Below are positions 28,101-52,615 of a stretch of DNA of 55,477 bases, piece by piece. Positions within the stretch are counted from its first letter, which is position 1. Every line of letters begins with the position of its first letter. The DNA comes from Actinomycetota bacterium (GTDB taxonomy: Bacteria; Actinomycetota; CADDZG01; JAHWKV01; JAOPZY01), in NCBI GenBank assembly GCA_035765775.1, contig DASTWV010000002.1:1-55477 (forward strand), in the 5' to 3' direction. The translations under genes and the position numbers were made by a program. The notes below the pieces were generated by a model. The model ran no database searches. It was not told the DNA's origin and saw nothing but the letters and a program-made list of their open reading frames with translations.

Positions 28101-29288
28101 ATGGCAAAGAAGAAGTTCGAGCGTAACAAGCCCCACGTAAATATTGGTACCATCGGTCACATCGACCACGGCAAGACCACGCTTACCGCGGCCATCACCA
28201 AGGTGCTCGCCAGCAAGGGCTGGGCCGACTTCACTCCCTTCGACCAGATCGACAAGGCTCCGGAGGAGCGCGCCCGGGGCATCACCATCGCCATCGCCCA
28301 CGTGGAGTACCAGACCGCCAACCGGCACTACGCCCATGTGGACTGCCCGGGTCACGCCGACTACATCAAGAACATGATCACCGGCGCCGCCCAGATGGAC
28401 GGTGCCATCCTGGTGGTCTCCGCAGCCGACGGCCCGATGCCCCAGACCCGGGAGCACGTGCTGCTGGCCCGCCAGGTCGGCGTGCCCTACATCGTCGTGG
28501 CGATGAACAAGGTGGACATGGTCGACGACCCCGAGATCCTCGACCTGGTCGAGCTCGAGGTGCGCGAGCTGCTCACCAGCTACGACTTCCCGGGCGACGA
28601 CGTCCCGGTGGTGCGCATCTCGGCCCTCAAGGCCCTCCAGGGCGACCCCGACGCCGAGGCCGGGATCATGGAGCTGATGGCGGCGTGCGACAGCGCCATC
28701 CCCCAGCCGGTGCGAGACATCGACAAGCCGTTCCTCATGCCGATCGAGGACGTCTTCACCATCACCGGCCGCGGCACCGTGGTGACCGGGAGGGTGGAGC
28801 GCGGCAAGGTCAGGGTCTCCGACGAGGTCGAGATCGTGGGGATCCGCAACCAGACCCGCAAGAGCGTGTGCACCGGCGTCGAGATGTTCCGCAAGCTCCT
28901 CGACGAGGGCCAGGCAGGCGACAACGTGGGCATCCTGCTGCGTGGGGTGGACAAGAACGAGGTCGAGCGCGGGCAGGTGCTGTCCAAGCCGGGCTCGATC
29001 ACGCCCCACACCGAGTTCGAGGGCCAGGTCTATGTCCTGTCCAAGGACGAGGGCGGGCGCCACACGCCGTTCTTCAACAACTACCGCCCGCAGTTCTACT
29101 TCCGGACCACTGACGTCACCGGCCAGGTCGACCTGCCCGAGGGCACCGAGATGGTCATGCCGGGCGACCACACCTCGATGTCGGTGAAGCTGATCCAGCC
29201 CATCGCCATGGAGGAGGGCCTCCGATTCGCCATCCGTGAGGGTGGCCGGACGGTGGGGGCCGGTCAGGTCAGCAAAATTAACAAATAG
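28101..29288 (+). CDS. tuf: Elongation factor Tu
   Basis: The product is 395 aa. The G1 loop GHIDHGKTT (residues 19-27) has Ile where Val is usual, followed by [14 protein letters not shown] (switch I), DCPGH (G3), NKVDM (G4) and SAL (G5). Domain 2 has [20 protein letters not shown] Shine-Dalgarno precedes the ATG. It delivers aminoacyl-tRNA to the ribosome. It lies between tRNA-Met and rpmG rather than after fusA, and no second copy follows fusA in this window. Confidence 0.98.
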
Positions 29289-44272: not shown

Positions 44273-46777
44273 GTGCTCGATGTCCTTCGTGGTGTCTCGG
44301 AGGAGATGCTGCGGGCGGCCTCGCCTGCCTCGGGGCATCTGAACGTCCTGTCGTACGTTCGAGGGCCGGCAATCCTCATCGTCGGGGTGCTGGCCGTCCT
44401 GGCCGTGCGGTCCACCGGGCGCCGGCGGGCGATGCGGGAGGCGCGAGCGGAGCTGCCCGGCCCCGTTGAAGGGAAACTTGTGGAAACCGCCGCCACTATG
44501 GCGGTCCAATCCACAAGTTTTGCCTGGGGCGAGCCTGAACCCGATCTTGGACCCGATCTTGGACCCGATCTTGGGCCCGAGCCCGGTGCACCGGCTGGTC
44601 CCAACGGGGTCTCTGCGCCCTGGGCACCAGCCCCGGCGCCCGACGCCCTGCCGCTGGTCCTCCTGGACGGCACCACCCCCACCGCGGTGGTCAGCTCCAC
44701 CCGGGCCTCGCGCCGCTCCACCGAGGAGCCTCCCGCCCGGGAACGCAGGGCGAAGGCCAGGACCAGGGGCCCCGACCCGCAACCCCAGAACAAGCCCGAG
44801 AAGCACGCCGGCAGGAAGGCCAGGAAGGCCGCCCCCGAGCTGTCCATGGCGCCCTACACCCCGCCGCCCGAGCCCCCCGCCGATCATCAGGCCCCCGCCG
44901 GCAAGCCCCGCCGGGCCGACCGCCCGCGCAGCCCGGCGAAGACGCTGCGCCGGTTCCTCCGGCCCTACCGGTGGCGTCTCGGGGTGGCGTCCGTCCTGTC
45001 GGTCATGGAGACCACGCTGGAGGTGCTCCGCCCGTGGCCCCTGGCGCTGGCGGTGGACTATGCCATCGGGGGCAAGCGGCTGACCGGCTGGCTGGCCCCC
45101 CTGCGCCCGCTCACGCCCGGGCAGCTGGCCGGGGTGGCGGCGCTCAGCCTGCTGGTGATCGTCGCGGTGGGCGGCCTGATGAAATACCTCATCGAGTGCC
45201 TGATCGGGTCGGCCTCCGAGCGCATCGGCGCCGACATCCGGGTGGCCGCCTTCGCCAAGCTCACATCCCTCTCCCTGCGCTTCCACGACCGCAACCGCAC
45301 CGGCGACCTCGTCACCCGCCTGACCTCCGACGTCAGCCGGGTGCAGGACGCCACGGTGGCCTGGTTCGAGACCCTGGTGCCCGAGGGGCTCTCGCTGCTC
45401 GGCATGATGGGGGTGCTGTTCGTCATCGACCGGGAGCTCGGGGCAGCCGCTCTCGTGGTCATCCCCATCCTGAGCGTCCTCGGGGTGGTGTCCCGGCGGC
45501 GGATCCGGGAGGTGCAGCGCCAGACACGCACTCTCTTCGGCAACATGGCAAGCCGGGCCACCGACTCGTTGCGCAACGTCCGGGTGGTGCAGGCCTTCGC
45601 CCGGGGGCACCATGAACAGCGCCGCTTCCGCTCCGCCTCCGACGACGCGGCCGGCAGTGCGGTCGAGGCGGTCGAGGTCATGGCGCGGTTCGCGCCGCTC
45701 ACCGAGTCTGTTCTCGCCGCCGGCTCCGGCCTGGTGCTCTTCGTCGGGGTGCTCCGGGTCATCGACCACCGGCTCTCCGTCGGGACGCTCCTGGTGGTGC
45801 TGACGTACGTCACTGGGATGTACGGCCCCATCGGCGCCCTGACCCGGATGGTGTCGATGATGGCGAAGGGCACCGCCAGCCGGGAGCGGCTCGCCGAGAT
45901 CCTGAACTGTGACGAGGTGGTGAGCGAGAAGCCGAATCCCGCCGAGATGCCGGCCGGGATGCTGGGGCTGTCCTTGGACGGCGTCAGCTTTGCCTACCGG
46001 GACGGGAGCCCGGCGGTGTCCGATCTGAGTTTCCAGGTGCTGCCCGGCGAGGTCGCCTGCGTGGTCGGGGCGAGCGGTGCGGGCAAGTCCACCCTGCTCT
46101 CCCTCCTGCTGCGCCTCTACGACCCCGACGAGGGCACGATCCGGGTCAACGGCCAAGACCTGCGCAACATCCGGCTCGCGGGCCTGCGCGACCGCCTGTC
46201 GCTGGTCCCCCAGGACCCCTGGATCCTCGACGGCACCGTCGAGGACAACATCATCTTCGGCCAGCCCAACGCCACCCCGGGCGACGTCCGGCAGGCGGCC
46301 GCCCTGGCCCTGGTGGACGAGTTCGTGGACCGGATGCCCGACGGCTACGCCACCGAGGTGGGCGAAGGGGGCGGCCAGCTCTCGGGCGGCCAGCGCCGGC
46401 GCCTGGCGCTCGCCCGGGCCATCGTCCGGGACTGCTCGTTGCTGCTGCTGGACGAGCCCACCAACGGCCTGGACGCCGAGTCCGAGGCCACCGTGATGGC
46501 CGCCCTGCGCCGGGCGATCGAGGGCCGCACGGCGATCATCGTCTCGCACGCCCTCAGCGTGGCGGCGGGGTCCGACTGGGTGATCGTCCTCGAGGGAGGC
46601 CGGATCGCCGAGCAGGGGCGCCCGGTGGACCTGCTGGCGGCCGGCGGGGCCTTCGCCCGCCTCTGGTCGTTCCAGGGGCTGCCGGACGTGGCCACCATCG
46701 TCGCCCGCTCGGACGCCCTGGCGCCTAAGCGTTCGGGAGGATTCGGCCGCCGGCGCACCGGGGCCATGGCTTCATGA
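44273..46777 (+). CDS. Type I ABC exporter with N-terminal membrane anchor and long linker
   Basis: The product is 834 aa. Residues 31-46 form an extra membrane helix ([16 protein letters not shown]). Residues about 50-220 are a Pro/Arg-rich disordered linker with three GPDL repeats. The exporter core follows: six-helix ABC membrane domain (about 222-530), Walker A GASGAGKS (599-606), signature LSGGQ (703-707), Walker B with D727-E728 and H759. Permease and ATPase are fused, so a homodimer is likely. No C39 peptidase domain is seen. Substrate unknown; a 39-aa peptide gene follows. Confidence 0.88.
44474..44520 (+). repeat. Nested inverted repeat inside the exporter linker region
   Basis: AAACTTGTGGA (44474-44484) and TCCACAAGTTT (44510-44520) are perfect 11-bp arms. 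Inside them ACCGCC (44486-44491) and GGCGGT (44500-44505) form a second stem. The run TTTTG follows the 3' arm. It is embedded in the reading frame of the linker, so it is either a coding relic of an insertion or an RNA element acting during transcription. Confidence 0.6.
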
Positions 46778-47027: not shown

Positions 47028-47044
47028 CTCCCGCGCACTGTAAG

Positions 47045-47080
47045 GAGGCGGGCCGGCCACCGGCTCGCCTCTTTTGTTTT
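47045..47080 (+). terminator. Rho-independent terminator after the small peptide gene
   Basis: GAGGCGGGCCGG pairs with CCGGCTCGCCTC (12 bp, one G-U) around loop CCA, followed by TTTTGTTTT. It is the best intrinsic terminator in the window. The stretch 47081-47186 after it shows nothing recognised. Confidence 0.9.
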
Positions 47081-47215: not shown

Positions 47216-47344
47216 CATCCCTCGCGCCTCAGCCTGCCTGGTGGAAAGCCAGGGTCTCAGGCTGGGATGCGAGTCCGATCGGCCACCCGATGCAGCACGA
47301 TCCCCGGGTGCCACGCGCCACAGACGGTCAAGGAAGGACGAAGA

Positions 47345-47719
47345 GTGCCCACGATCCAGCAGCTCCTGCGGGACGGCCGCGAGACGCAGGTCACCAAGAC
47401 CAAGACGCCCGCCCTCCGCGGGTGCCCGCAGCGCCGCGGGGTGTGCACCCAGGTGAAGACCACCACCCCCAAGAAGCCCAACTCGGCCCTGCGCAAAATC
47501 GCCCGGGTGCGGCTCACCACCGGGGTCGAGGTGACCGCCTACATCCCGGGGATCGGCCACAACCTCCAGGAACACTCCATCGTGCTCGTCCGGGGGGGCC
47601 GCGTGAAGGACCTGCCCGGTGTGCGCTACAAGATCGTCCGGGGCACGCTGGACACCGCCGGCGTCCGCAACCGCAAGAAGGCCCGCAGCCGCTACGGGGC
47701 CAAGAAAGAGAAGAAGTAG
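47345..47719 (+). CDS. rpsL: 30S ribosomal protein S12
   Basis: The product is 124 aa from GTG with AAGGAAGG upstream. [31 protein letters not shown] and [16 protein letters not shown] are the S12 signatures. Both lysines at which streptomycin resistance arises (in KKPNSA and GRVKDLPG) are wild type. The ATG of rpsG follows the stop directly. Confidence 0.97.
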
Positions 47720-48190
47720 ATGCCGCGCAAAGGACCAGCCATCAAGCGGGAGCCCGCGCCGGACCCCATCTACCACAATCCCCTCGCCACGCAGTTCATC
47801 AACCGCATCATGCTGCGGGGCAAGAAGTCCCTGGCCGAGAAGATCGTGTACGGGGCACTCAAGATCATCTCCGAAAAGACCGGGGGCGACCCCACCCAGA
47901 CGCTGCGCAAAGCGGTGGAGGGGGCCCGGCCACTCATCGAGGTCAAGTCCCGGCGGGTCGGTGGCGCCACCTACCAGGTGCCCATGGAGGTGCCCTCGCG
48001 GCGCTCAACCACCCTGGCAATCCGGTGGATCGTCAACTACTCGCGGGTCCGCCGGGAGCGCACCATGGCCCAGCGCCTGGCCGGCGAATTGATGGATGCA
48101 GCCAACGGGGTCGGGGCGTCGGTGAAGCGGCGGGAAGACCTGCACAAGATGGCAGAGGCAAACAAGGCATTCGCACACTATCGGTGGTAA
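47720..48190 (+). CDS. rpsG: 30S ribosomal protein S7
   Basis: The product is 156 aa. [40 protein letters not shown] and the C-terminal [17 protein letters not shown] are typical. It starts immediately after the rpsL stop. A 306-base leader separates it from fusA, which is longer than usual for this gene pair. Confidence 0.97.
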
Positions 48191-48328
48191 ATAGCCGTAC
48201 GAGGGAATAAGAGGGAGTCCCTCGCCGGTGAGGTAGGCTGTGGTGTCCGAACTTCGAGCGTAGACAGGCGTGGGCACGGCCGCAGCGTCAAAACGGCCCA
48301 GCCATCTGGCGTACAGGAGGAGGCGGCA

Positions 48329-48364
48329 TTGCGCAGAGGCAAATGGGAGGTGTCGCAGAGGTAG
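48329..48364 (+). CDS. Putative 11-aa leader peptide of fusA
   Basis: TTG 48329 follows AGGAGGAGG by a suitable spacing and opens MRRGKWEVSQR, ending at TAG 48362. Three Arg and one Lys in eleven residues and a single Trp are the notable features. A ribosome at its stop would cover the CAGAG and TCGCAG elements that can pair downstream. Confidence 0.45.
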   Translation: MRRGKWEVSQR

Positions 48365-48388
48365 CTCTGTGCACGCTGCGATACCGCC

Positions 48389-48417
48389 CGGCCGGGAGCA
48401 GAATGCCCGGCCGTTTT
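48389..48417 (+). terminator. Attenuator hairpin before fusA
   Basis: CGGCCGGG and CCCGGCCG form a perfect 8-bp stem with a 9-base loop, followed by TTTT. It lies 80 bases before the fusA start and after the leader ORF. Confidence 0.65.
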
Positions 48418-48496
48418 GCTGCCAGGAAACAAGTGGCGCCCAGAAGCAAAGGTTCGAAGAAAACTAGGGGGTAGTGAAGGGTTGGTGGTACGAGCG

Positions 48497-50659
48497 ATGG
48501 CAACAGAACCTGAGGTCCTCCGGAACGACAAGCCGGCGCTGCGCGCCGTCGAGGGCACCGGCAAGGGCGGCGCGCCCTTGATCCGGGAGTACCCGCTCGG
48601 CCGGACCCGCAACATCGGGATCATGGCCCACATCGACGCGGGCAAGACCACGACCACCGAGCGCATCCTCTATTACACCGGCCGCACCTACAAGATGGGC
48701 GAGGTCCACGAGGGCGCCGCGGTGATGGACTGGATGGTCCAGGAGCAGGAGCGGGGCATCACCATCACCTCCGCCGCCACCACCTGCCGGTGGAAGGACC
48801 ACTGGATCAACATCATCGACACCCCGGGCCACGTGGACTTCACCGTCGAGGTGGAGCGCTCGCTGCGGGTGCTGGACGGGGCCGTGGCCATCTTCGACGC
48901 CGTCGCCGGGGTCGAGCCCCAGACCGAGACCGTCTGGCGCCAGGCCGACCGCTACCGGGTGCCCCGCATGTGCTTCATCAACAAGATGGATCGCCTCGGG
49001 GCAGACTTCGACATGACGGTGGACATGATCCGGGACCGCCTCGGAGCCCACCCGCTCCCGGTGCAGATCCCGTGGGGCAAAGAAGCCGACTTCCACGGTG
49101 TTATCGACCTCATCGAGATGAAGGGCCGCTACTGGACCACCGACAAGGGTGATGTCTGGGAGGACCGCGAGATCCCCGCTGAACTCAAGGACGAGGCCGA
49201 GCACTGGCGTCACGAGCTCTTCGAGGCCCTGGCCGAGTTCGACGACGAGGTCATGGAGGCCTACGTCCACGGCGGCGAGCCCAGCCCGGAGCACCTCCGC
49301 AGCGCCGTGCGCAAGGCCACCCTGGCGGGCGAGGCGACACCGGTTCTGTGCGGCACCGCCTTCAAGAACAAGGGCGTGCAGCCGCTGCTCGACGCCATCG
49401 TGGCCTACCTGCCCTCCCCGCTCGACGTGCCGCCGGTCGTGGGCGAGAACCCCCGGGGCGAGGGCACCATCGAGCGCAAGGCGGAGGACACTGCGCCGTT
49501 CTGCGCCTTGGCCTTCAAGATCATGTCCGACCCCCACGTCGGCCGGCTGACCTACTTCCGGGTGTACTCGGGCACGGTGCGGGCCGGCGGCGCGGTCTCC
49601 AACTCCACCCGGGACCGAAAGGAGCGCATCGGGCGCATCCTGCAGATGCACGCCAACCACCGGGAGGACAAAGAAGCCGCCTTCACCGGCGACATCGTGG
49701 CCGTGGTGGGACTGAAGCAGACCTTCACCGGCGACACGCTGTGCGACCCCAACCAACCGATCATCCTCGAGGCACCCACCTTCGCCGCCCCCGTGATCTC
49801 CATGGCCATCGAGCCCAAGACCAAAGTGGACCAGGAGCGCCTGGCCACCGCGCTCCAGCGGCTGGCCGAGGAGGACCCCACCTTCCAGATCCGCACGGAC
49901 CTGGAGACCGGGCAGACCATCATCTCGGGCATGGGCGAGCTGCACCTCGAGGTGCTGGTGGACCGCCTCACCCGGGAGTTCAAGGTGGATGCCAACGTCG
50001 GCAAGCCGCAGGTGGCCTACCGGGAGACCGTCCGCAAGCCCGCCCACCACGTGGTGCTGCGCTACGTCAAGCAGACCGGTGGCAAGGGCCAGTTCGCCCA
50101 CGTGGTGCTGGACCTGGAGCCCCTGGGGCCGGGCGGCGGCTTTGAGTTCGTCAGCCAGATCAAGGGCGGCGCCATCCCGGTCGAGTACATCCCGGCGGTG
50201 GACGAGGGCGTCCAGGACGCCATGGCCGGCGGTGTGCTGGCCGGCTACCCGATGGTGGACATCCGGGTCACCCTCGTGGACGGCTCCTACCACGAGGTGG
50301 ACTCCTCGGAGATGGCCTTCAAGATCGCCGGGTCCATGGCGCTGAAGCAGGCGGCCGGCCAGGCGGGCCCCACGTTGCTCGAGCCCGTGATGGAGGTCGA
50401 GGTTGTGACCCCGGAGGACTTCATGGGCGAGGTCATCGGCGATGTCAACAGCCGCCGGGGCCGCATCGAGAAGTTGGATAACCGGGGCACATCCCGTATC
50501 ATCCGTGCCTTCGTGCCTCTCGCCGAGATGTTCGGCTACGCCACGGACCTACGCAGCCGCACCCAAGGCCGGGCGACGTACACGATGCAGTTCCACTCGT
50601 ACCAGGAAGTGCCCGCATCCCTGTCGGAGCAGATCGTCAAGCGGGTCCGGGGTTACTAG
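48497..50659 (+). CDS. fusA: Elongation factor G
   Basis: The product is 720 aa from ATG 48497. About 35 residues precede the G domain, longer than the usual ten. G1 is [11 protein letters not shown], switch region [13 protein letters not shown]3 DTPGHVDF and G4 NKMDRLGA. Domains III-V follow, with the C-terminal [25 protein letters not shown] eight bases upstream is the best Shine-Dalgarno; in-frame TTG 48482 and GTG 48485 are alternative starts. It translocates tRNA on the ribosome. rpsJ, not tuf, follows. Confidence 0.96.
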
Positions 50660-50739: not shown

Positions 50740-51054
50740 ATGGCCAGCCAGAAGATCCGCATCAAGCTCAAGGCGTATGACCACGAGGTCATCGACCAGA
50801 GCGCGCGCAAGATCGTGGACACGGTGACCCGGACGGGAGCCGGCGTGCACGGTCCCATCCCCCTCCCGACGCGGATCGAGCGGGTCACGGTCATCCGGTC
50901 CCCACACAAGGACAAGGACTCCCGCGAGCACTTCGAGATGCGGACCCACAAGCGGATGATCGACATCTTGGACCCGACGCCCAAGACCGTGGACAGCCTG
51001 CAGCGGCTGGACCTCCCGGCTGGCGTCGATATCGAGATCAAGCTGAACCTCTAG
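50740..51054 (+). CDS. rpsJ: 30S ribosomal protein S10
   Basis: The product is 104 aa. [26 protein letters not shown] and [13 protein letters not shown] are diagnostic. It lies 80 bases after fusA with AAAAAAGGGG before the ATG. Besides the ribosome, S10 (NusE) partners NusG/NusB in antitermination. Confidence 0.97.
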
Positions 51055-51090: not shown

Positions 51091-51114
51091 ATGGCGGCAG
51101 TAACTTGGCTCTAG
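51091..51114 (+). CDS. Possible 7-codon ORF overlapping the rplC start
   Basis: ATG 51091 reads MAAVTWL and stops at TAG 51112, crossing the TTG start of rplC (51105) in another frame. GTGAGG lies upstream of it, whereas the rplC TTG has no good Shine-Dalgarno. It could deliver ribosomes to rplC by termination-reinitiation. Confidence 0.25.
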   Translation: MAAVTWL

Positions 51115-51770
51115 TTACAAAGGGCATCTTCGGCGTGAAGGTCGGGATGACCCAGGTCTTCGACGAGTCGTCGCGGGTGATCCCCGTGACAGTGGTGCGC
51201 GCCGGGCCGTGCACGGTCTCGGCCCTCCGCACGCCGGAGAAGGACGGCTACACCGCCATCCAGCTCGCATTCGGCGAGGTCCCCCCCCGCAAGCTCAACA
51301 AGCCGGAGATGGGGCACCTGAAGGCGGCCTCCATCGCGCCGATGCGCCACCTCGGCGAGGTGCGCGTCGAGTCCTCGGAAGGGTTCACGGTCGGCCAGGA
51401 AATCCTGGCCGATGTCTTTGCCAAGGGGGAGCGGGTGGACGTCGTGGGCACCTCCAAGGGCAAGGGCTTCAGCGGCGTCATGCGCCGCCACGGGTTCAAG
51501 GGCCTGTCCGCCAGCCACGGCACCGAGCGCAAGCACCGCTCGCCGGGCTCGGTGGGCGCCAGCGCCACCCCGTCCCGCATCTTCAAAGGCGTCCGGATGG
51601 CGGGCCAGTTGGGCCACTCCCGGGTGACCATGCTGAACCTCGAGGTGGTCGAGGCTGACCCCAAGCGCAACCTCCTGCTGATCCGGGGCGCGGTGCCGGG
51701 CCCGGACGGGGGCGTCGTGCTGGTGCGCTCCTCGGTCAAGGCCAAGGCCAACAAGGCGGGTGCATCATGA
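51105..51770 (+). CDS. rplC: 50S ribosomal protein L3
   Basis: The product is 221 aa from TTG. FGVKVGMTQVFDE, the extended loop SKGKGFSGVMRRHGFKG.SASHG and HRSPGSVGA are L3 signatures. TTG is the only start that gives the family N-terminus (MALVTKGIFGVKVGMTQ). The stop overlaps rplD ATG. Confidence 0.96.
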   Translation: MALVTKGIFGVKVGMTQVFDESSRVIPVTVVRAGPCTVSALRTPEKDGYTAIQLAFGEVPPRKLNKPEMGHLKAASIAPMRHLGEVRVESSEGFTVGQEILADVFAKGERVDVVGTSKGKGFSGVMRRHGFKGLSASHGTERKHRSPGSVGASATPSRIFKGVRMAGQLGHSRVTMLNLEVVEADPKRNLLLIRGAVPGPDGGVVLVRSSVKAKANKAGAS

Positions 51771-52615
51771 GCGTGGCCGCGTTTGTCGATGCCGACGGCA
51801 AGGCCACCGGTCAGGTCCAGCTCCCGGACGACATCTTTGACGTCGACCCCAACGTGCCGGTCATGCACGCGGTGGTGCGGGCACACCTCGCCGCAGCCCG
51901 AGCGGGGACGCACTCCACCAAGACCCGGGCCGAGGTCCGGGGGGGCGGCAAGAAGCCCTGGCGCCAGAAGGGGACCGGGCGTGCGCGCCACGGCTCCTCC
52001 CGGGAGCCGCAGTGGGTGGGCGGCGGCGTCGCCCACGGGCCGAAGCCCCGCGACTACACGTTCCAGCTGACCAAGAAGACCCGCGCCCTCGCCCTGCGCT
52101 GCGCCTTGAGCGACCGGGCGCGGGAGGGCAGCCTCATCGTGGTGGACGCCCCGGTCTTCAGCGAGCCCAAGACCAAGAAGGGCGCCGAGTTGCTGAAAAG
52201 CTGGGGTGCCTCGGGCAAGGTCCTGCTGGTCACCGGCCGGCTGACCGGCGACGGCGACGCCCGGTCGGACACCTGGAAGTCATTCCGCAACCTGCCCCAG
52301 GTCCTGATGGTGCGCGTGCCCACCACCTACACGGTGCTGGCGGCCGACGTGGTGGTCCTGACCCGGGAGGCGCTGGCCCAGATCACCAAGGCCGATATCG
52401 CCGTCGATGCGGCGCCGGCCGCTGCCGAGGCCGAGCCGGTTTCTGCCGAGCAGGCAAAGGCGGAGACCGAAGTTGCCGCCGAGGCGCAGGAAATCGCGGA
52501 CGACGCGGCGGATGAAGAAGCAATGGACGAGGCCGTGGTGGTGGCCGAGGCCCAGGAGATCGCCGATGAAGCCTCCGATGGCGAGGCGGATGGCGACGAG
52601 GAGGAGGCCGAATGA
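51767..52615 (+). CDS. rplD: 50S ribosomal protein L4 with acidic C-terminal extension
   Basis: The product is 282 aa, about 70 longer than usual. Residues 1-212 are normal L4 ([34 protein letters not shown] is the tunnel loop; [10 protein letters not shown] near the usual end). The rest is Ala/Glu/Asp rich with an internal duplication [13 protein letters not shown] and [13 protein letters not shown], ending GDEEEAE. ATG overlaps the rplC stop; TGA overlaps the rplW ATG. Confidence 0.95.

Follow-up and report, generated by a model that had tools for sequence, protein, structure and literature searches.

The window analysed here is a 55,477-nucleotide stretch of DNA, contig 2 of a 3.6-Mb actinobacterial genome assembled in 62 contigs (G000). 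Most of the named loci with the nearest rpsG are likewise from actinobacteria. The genes around the element described below are arranged in the order tuf (28101-29288, upstream of tRNA-Trp) ... rpoB, probable rpoC (an ORF of 1316 codons after rpoB, consistent with rpoC), an ABC exporter gene, rpsL, rpsG, fusA, rpsJ, rplC, rplD and rplW. The element lies on the forward strand between rpsG (47720-48190; S7, TIGR01029, 215 bits) and fusA (48497-50659; EF-G, TIGR00484, 1084 bits), which starts with the ATG at 48497. The S10-type genes rpsJ (50740-51054), rplC (51105-51770) and rplD (51767-52615), identified by NCBIfam models, follow fusA on the same strand and stand in the same order in the relatives. 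The exporter gene (44273-46777, 834 amino acids), located between the rpoBC genes and rpsL, has a terminator-like hairpin downstream of it (47042-47074). As listed, the rpsL ORF (47267-47719) is approximately 26 codons too long; its true start is likely to be near 47345, since the match to the S12 profile begins at residue 28.

The rpsG gene was found in 21 of the 24 genomes of the class, the window's own included. Seven members of the window's order, a group of uncultured actinobacteria, had an assembled rpsG-fusA gap; they belong to two families and five genera: G000 and G001 of the window's own family (f1), and G002, G003, G004, G005 and G007 of the second family (f2). A DNA search with the leader gave a convincing match only in G001, and the remaining relatives were reached via rpsG. 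All seven gaps contained the same three parts, a short ORF starting with TTG, a hairpin (H1) and a terminator-like hairpin (H2), in the same order and in register. The initial annotation had described a leader ORF and a terminator ahead of fusA, built like a ribosome-mediated attenuator. Its coordinates and sequences all proved exact when checked again, and this arrangement is conserved in the relatives.

The leader ORF (48329-48364) has 11 codons and encodes MRRGKWEVSQR. It is preceded by the Shine-Dalgarno run AGGAGGAGG (48315-48323), whose predicted duplex with the anti-Shine-Dalgarno sequence (-11.8 kcal/mol) was equalled by 0.7% of random 16-mers taken from the locus. A clear Shine-Dalgarno sequence was also present in G001, G004 and G005; those of the other three leaders were weaker, G002 and G003 having weak ones. 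The ORF is 11 codons long in five of the seven genomes and 10 in one. In the seventh, G005 (G005:C3:306037-306133), a difference of one base in length from G002 disrupts the frame and may be real or an assembly error; MTMHA or MHA remains, with the same final frame and the same stop. The peptides are MRRGKWEVSQR (G000), MVRSKRVVSQT (G001), MDKNTREVSQG (G004), MKEADRMFLHA (G002), MNKTNRTVMHA (G007) and MRADRLTMHA (G003). No run of one residue, such as the regulatory codons of trp- or his-type leaders, was shared by these six peptides, and no known arrest motif was recognised in the leader peptide. Alignments of seven and of six leaders showed no variation in the TTG or in the TA of the stop. 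Ahead of H1, no column of the six-leader alignment other than those of the start codon was invariant; at the apex of H1, invariance was limited to the G-C-A around codon 10, the stop-codon TA and a single G. These invariant columns, at the TTG and at the H1 apex, are the best evidence suggesting that the ORF is translated.

Comparison of the leaders defined H1, a hairpin of 12 pairs. Its 5' arm GGGAGGTGTCGCAG (48345-48358) overlaps ORF codons 6-10, its loop contains the stop codon, and its 3' arm CTGCGATACCGCCC (48376-48389) shares its last base with H2, which begins there. Pairing was seen in 87.5% of the H1 cells of the six-sequence alignment, a figure biased in favour of H1 because the hairpin had been deduced from the sequences on which it was then counted, seven being all that exist; slid registers gave only 24-54%, and no shuffle reached the value of H1. 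The double-sided changes found at four pairs, GC/UA/AU (columns 34-75), GU/UA/UG/CG, UA/AU and CG/UA, appear harder to explain away than the paired percentage. The covariation score was 0.47 compared with 0.22 in shuffles, and none of 500 shuffles reached 0.47. The segment 48280-48425 folded better than all 200 shuffled versions (z -3.5).

H2 (CGGCCGGG-AGCAGAATG-CCCGGCCG, 48389-48413) is GC-rich, has a stem of 8 bp formed by 48389-48396 and 48406-48413, with a predicted energy of -16.3 kcal/mol when folded alone, and is followed by the short run TTTT (48414-48417), a weak U-tract. A hairpin of at least 8 bp plus a T-run, for which termination itself is predicted, was present in all seven members of the order. 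The 3' foot of H1 runs into the 5' foot of H2 in all seven. For most of family f2 this overlap comprises 3-4 bases, for f1 1-2. G003, G004, G005 and G007 each have three H2 basal pairs under competition, G000 and G001 one or two, and in G002 the competition is weaker. Computational folding of the ribosome-free leaders gave the foot of H2 to H1 or to a neighbouring segment in all seven, with a probability of 0.00-0.23 for the outermost pair. A ribosome footprint over the stop codon or over codons 2-3 mostly restored the foot; the exceptions were G001 (0.08), G005 (0.04) and G003 (0.26), whose outermost pair stayed low with the footprint over the stop codon. Losing one or two basal pairs may not disable H2 in the window's own family.

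H1, conserved and covarying, had been missed by the initial annotation, which assigned the antiterminator role to CAAAACGGCC (48289-48298) pairing with GGCCGTTTTG (48409-48418), the 3' arm and U-tract of the terminator. When the related rpsG-fusA gaps were aligned, as had been suggested there, the ORF was found to be conserved, whereas the complementary segments were absent. The complement is exact over 10 bases in the window; a complement of this length between the upstream gap and the terminator occurred in 0.25% of dinucleotide shuffles, a frequency to be read for a pair picked by eye from a 55-kb window. However, no relative has the pairing, and the longest corresponding complements in the six relatives were 3-6 bases. 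Moreover, such an antiterminator would be completed only after the terminator and the U-tract had been transcribed. CAAAACGGCC is thus unconserved and its complementarity probably incidental. Similarly, the two small stems noted at the stop codon (GCGCAGAG, 48331-48338, or CAGAG, 48356-48360, each pairing with CTCTG(TGC) from 48365) are present in the window but are not conserved in the relatives.

To follow the distribution of the element, a covariance model was used. Built without G007, it recovered G007 at an E-value of 1.7e-13, and in the window's own genome it found one copy. Among 24 genomes of the class and 396 of the phylum the model detected no element near fusA outside the order. The other matches were weak and were attributed to chance, their loci containing no rpsL, rpsG or EF-G motif. 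A hairpin with a T-run was present in the rpsG-fusA gap in seven of seven cases in the order and in one of 111 other parsed gaps (80 named loci chosen by rpsG similarity and 40 phylum genomes, less nine unparsed). The control gap G120, with a hairpin and a TTCTC tail, had by eye no comparable H1 or leader ORF. In the window no Rfam family other than tRNAs matched at gathering score, and nothing meaningful matched the element region at E-values up to 5; a known riboswitch or ribosomal protein leader was rejected for lack of such a match.

A sister family within the class, f3, has a short gap and no leader, and its fusA is followed by tuf in 14 of 14 loci examined. In the order tuf lies away from fusA, and S10-type genes come after fusA instead; direct matches to rpsJ were obtained in G000-G005, and G007, in which the rpsJ motif itself was unmatched, has rplC and rplD at similar spacing. 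The attenuator and the fusA-S10 arrangement went together in all 21 loci examined. The terminator scan of the window detected no forward-strand terminator between fusA and rpsJ.

Taken together, these features make us lean towards the view that ribosomes control a partial transcription attenuator in the rpsG-fusA gap, which acts on fusA and probably on the S10 genes. Some of the rpsL-rpsG transcripts would end at H2, and the position of the ribosome on the leader ORF would set the fraction that continues into fusA and then into rpsJ-rplC-rplD. Readthrough into the latter genes is suggested by the missing tuf and by the lack of a detected terminator after fusA, so that the attenuator probably governs the S10 genes as well. 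If the leader is free of ribosomes, H1 would form and take the foot of H2, and H2, shortened or set back from the U-tract, would let RNA polymerase read through. A ribosome on the leader would unzip H1, the full H2 would form and transcription would stop. Ample translation would then lower, and scarce translation raise, the expression of EF-G and the S10 genes in a homeostatic loop. H1 is put forward as the antiterminator because in predicted folding the ribosome-free H2 is trimmed and a ribosome usually frees its foot; the odds of this direction against the reverse are, however, not much better than even. A wider proposal is possible but tentative: the leader-ORF attenuator would sense ribosome activity, and hence the supply of EF-G, would set the merged fusA-S10 operon as a unit, and would have arisen in the order in which fusA is not followed by tuf.

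The same parts could also act with the opposite sign, in a coupling resembling that of pyrBI. A ribosome at the leader stop would hinder the folding of H2 as RNA polymerase passes and so cause readthrough, whereas with a slow or absent ribosome both H1 and H2 would form and transcription would stop; H1 could then act as a pause hairpin, giving the ribosome time to draw level. The distance from the leader stop codon to H2, 18-24 nt in all seven leaders, is inside the reach of approximately 27 nt over which a ribosome at a stop codon represses a terminator in E. coli (PMC4824070), and since this arrangement needs no large overlap between H1 and H2 it fits the window's own family better. But the repression reported at 18-24 nt is partial and sequence-dependent, and it would leave unexplained why the foot of H1 runs into that of H2 in all seven genomes. 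We regard this arrangement as rather unlikely.

Alternatively, H2 might simply terminate part of the transcription and keep fusA and S10 transcripts at a fixed, lower ratio to those of rpsL-rpsG, H1 and the ORF protecting the 3' end of the rpsG mRNA or being otherwise non-regulatory. H2 is the most conserved part of the element, and the U-tracts are short (TTTTG, CTTTG, TTTCA), as expected of a leaky terminator. A plain terminator would not, however, account for a start codon that is invariant outside any structure, for a stop codon invariant in the loop of H1, or for an ORF length of 11 codons kept in five of seven genomes although the sequences have diverged, and we think it improbable. Control of termination by S7, S12 or another protein binding to H1 would suit the position adjoining rpsG. 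Ribosomal proteins are firmly known to exert feedback on str operons (for S7 in E. coli, see the citation in PMC2965389), and a predicted streptococcal rpsG-fusA attenuator was discussed as such. We nevertheless consider protein control very improbable: even lax thresholds brought up no Rfam family for this region, the H1 loops of the two subgroups have only GCA and the stop codon in common, and protein binding needs no conserved start codon.

The ribosome-controlled attenuator favoured here resembles the leader-peptide attenuators of trp/his, pyrBI, bmrCD and erm/mef in that an ORF overlaps a hairpin and is followed by an intrinsic terminator before the controlled gene. It differs from them in that H1 touches or overlaps the terminator at its foot only, and in that the genes targeted would be those for EF-G and the S10 group instead of biosynthetic or resistance genes. 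Classically, the str and S10 operons are held to be controlled by ribosomal proteins that bind their own mRNA. In E. coli the S10 operon leader mediates L4-controlled attenuation, in which premature termination throttles the S10-operon genes; that leader is located directly before rpsJ, whereas the present element precedes fusA, one gene upstream of rpsJ. If ribosome traffic were indeed reported directly by a leader ORF, feedback on the translation machinery would take a different and simpler form, and EF-G and the S10 genes would be uncoupled from rpsL-rpsG. The tie of the element to the absence of tuf from the operon makes a testable story, in which the operon rearrangement and the new control evolved together.

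The initial annotation knew of no attenuator of this kind on fusA, but attenuation at this place had already been reported in streptococci: an attenuator between rpsG and fusA was predicted under the name 'rpsL-leader' (Naville & Gautheret 2010, PMC2965389), and an RNA 3'-end peak between the two genes is included in a PIPETS data set (PMC11585934). The 'rpsL-leader' shares with the present element its premature termination between rpsG and fusA at the same gene position. It belongs to Bacillota, and the passage devoted to it describes a ribosomal protein leader with an antiterminator and mentions no leader ORF, the comparison with the actinobacterial element being one of descriptions only. 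The structured Candidatus Pelagibacter rpsL motif also occurs in the str operon, occasionally ahead of fusA (Meyer et al. 2009, PMC2704228); unlike the present element it has a three-stem junction and is described as a likely ribosomal protein control element (PMC2704228), and Naville & Gautheret found that it fails their terminator criteria (PMC2965389). No description of a leader-ORF attenuator on fusA was found in the open-access literature. What is new is the leader-ORF version in one actinobacterial order, attenuation between rpsG and fusA being already known.

Two observations concern EF-G itself. The product of fusA has an N-terminal extension of approximately 28 residues (48497-48580) ahead of the family profile, and the length of this extension varies across the class. 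A second EF-G-like protein, with 42% identity to the EF-G of the window, is encoded elsewhere in the genome (G000:C40:106905-108974), and most members of the class have similar paralogues.
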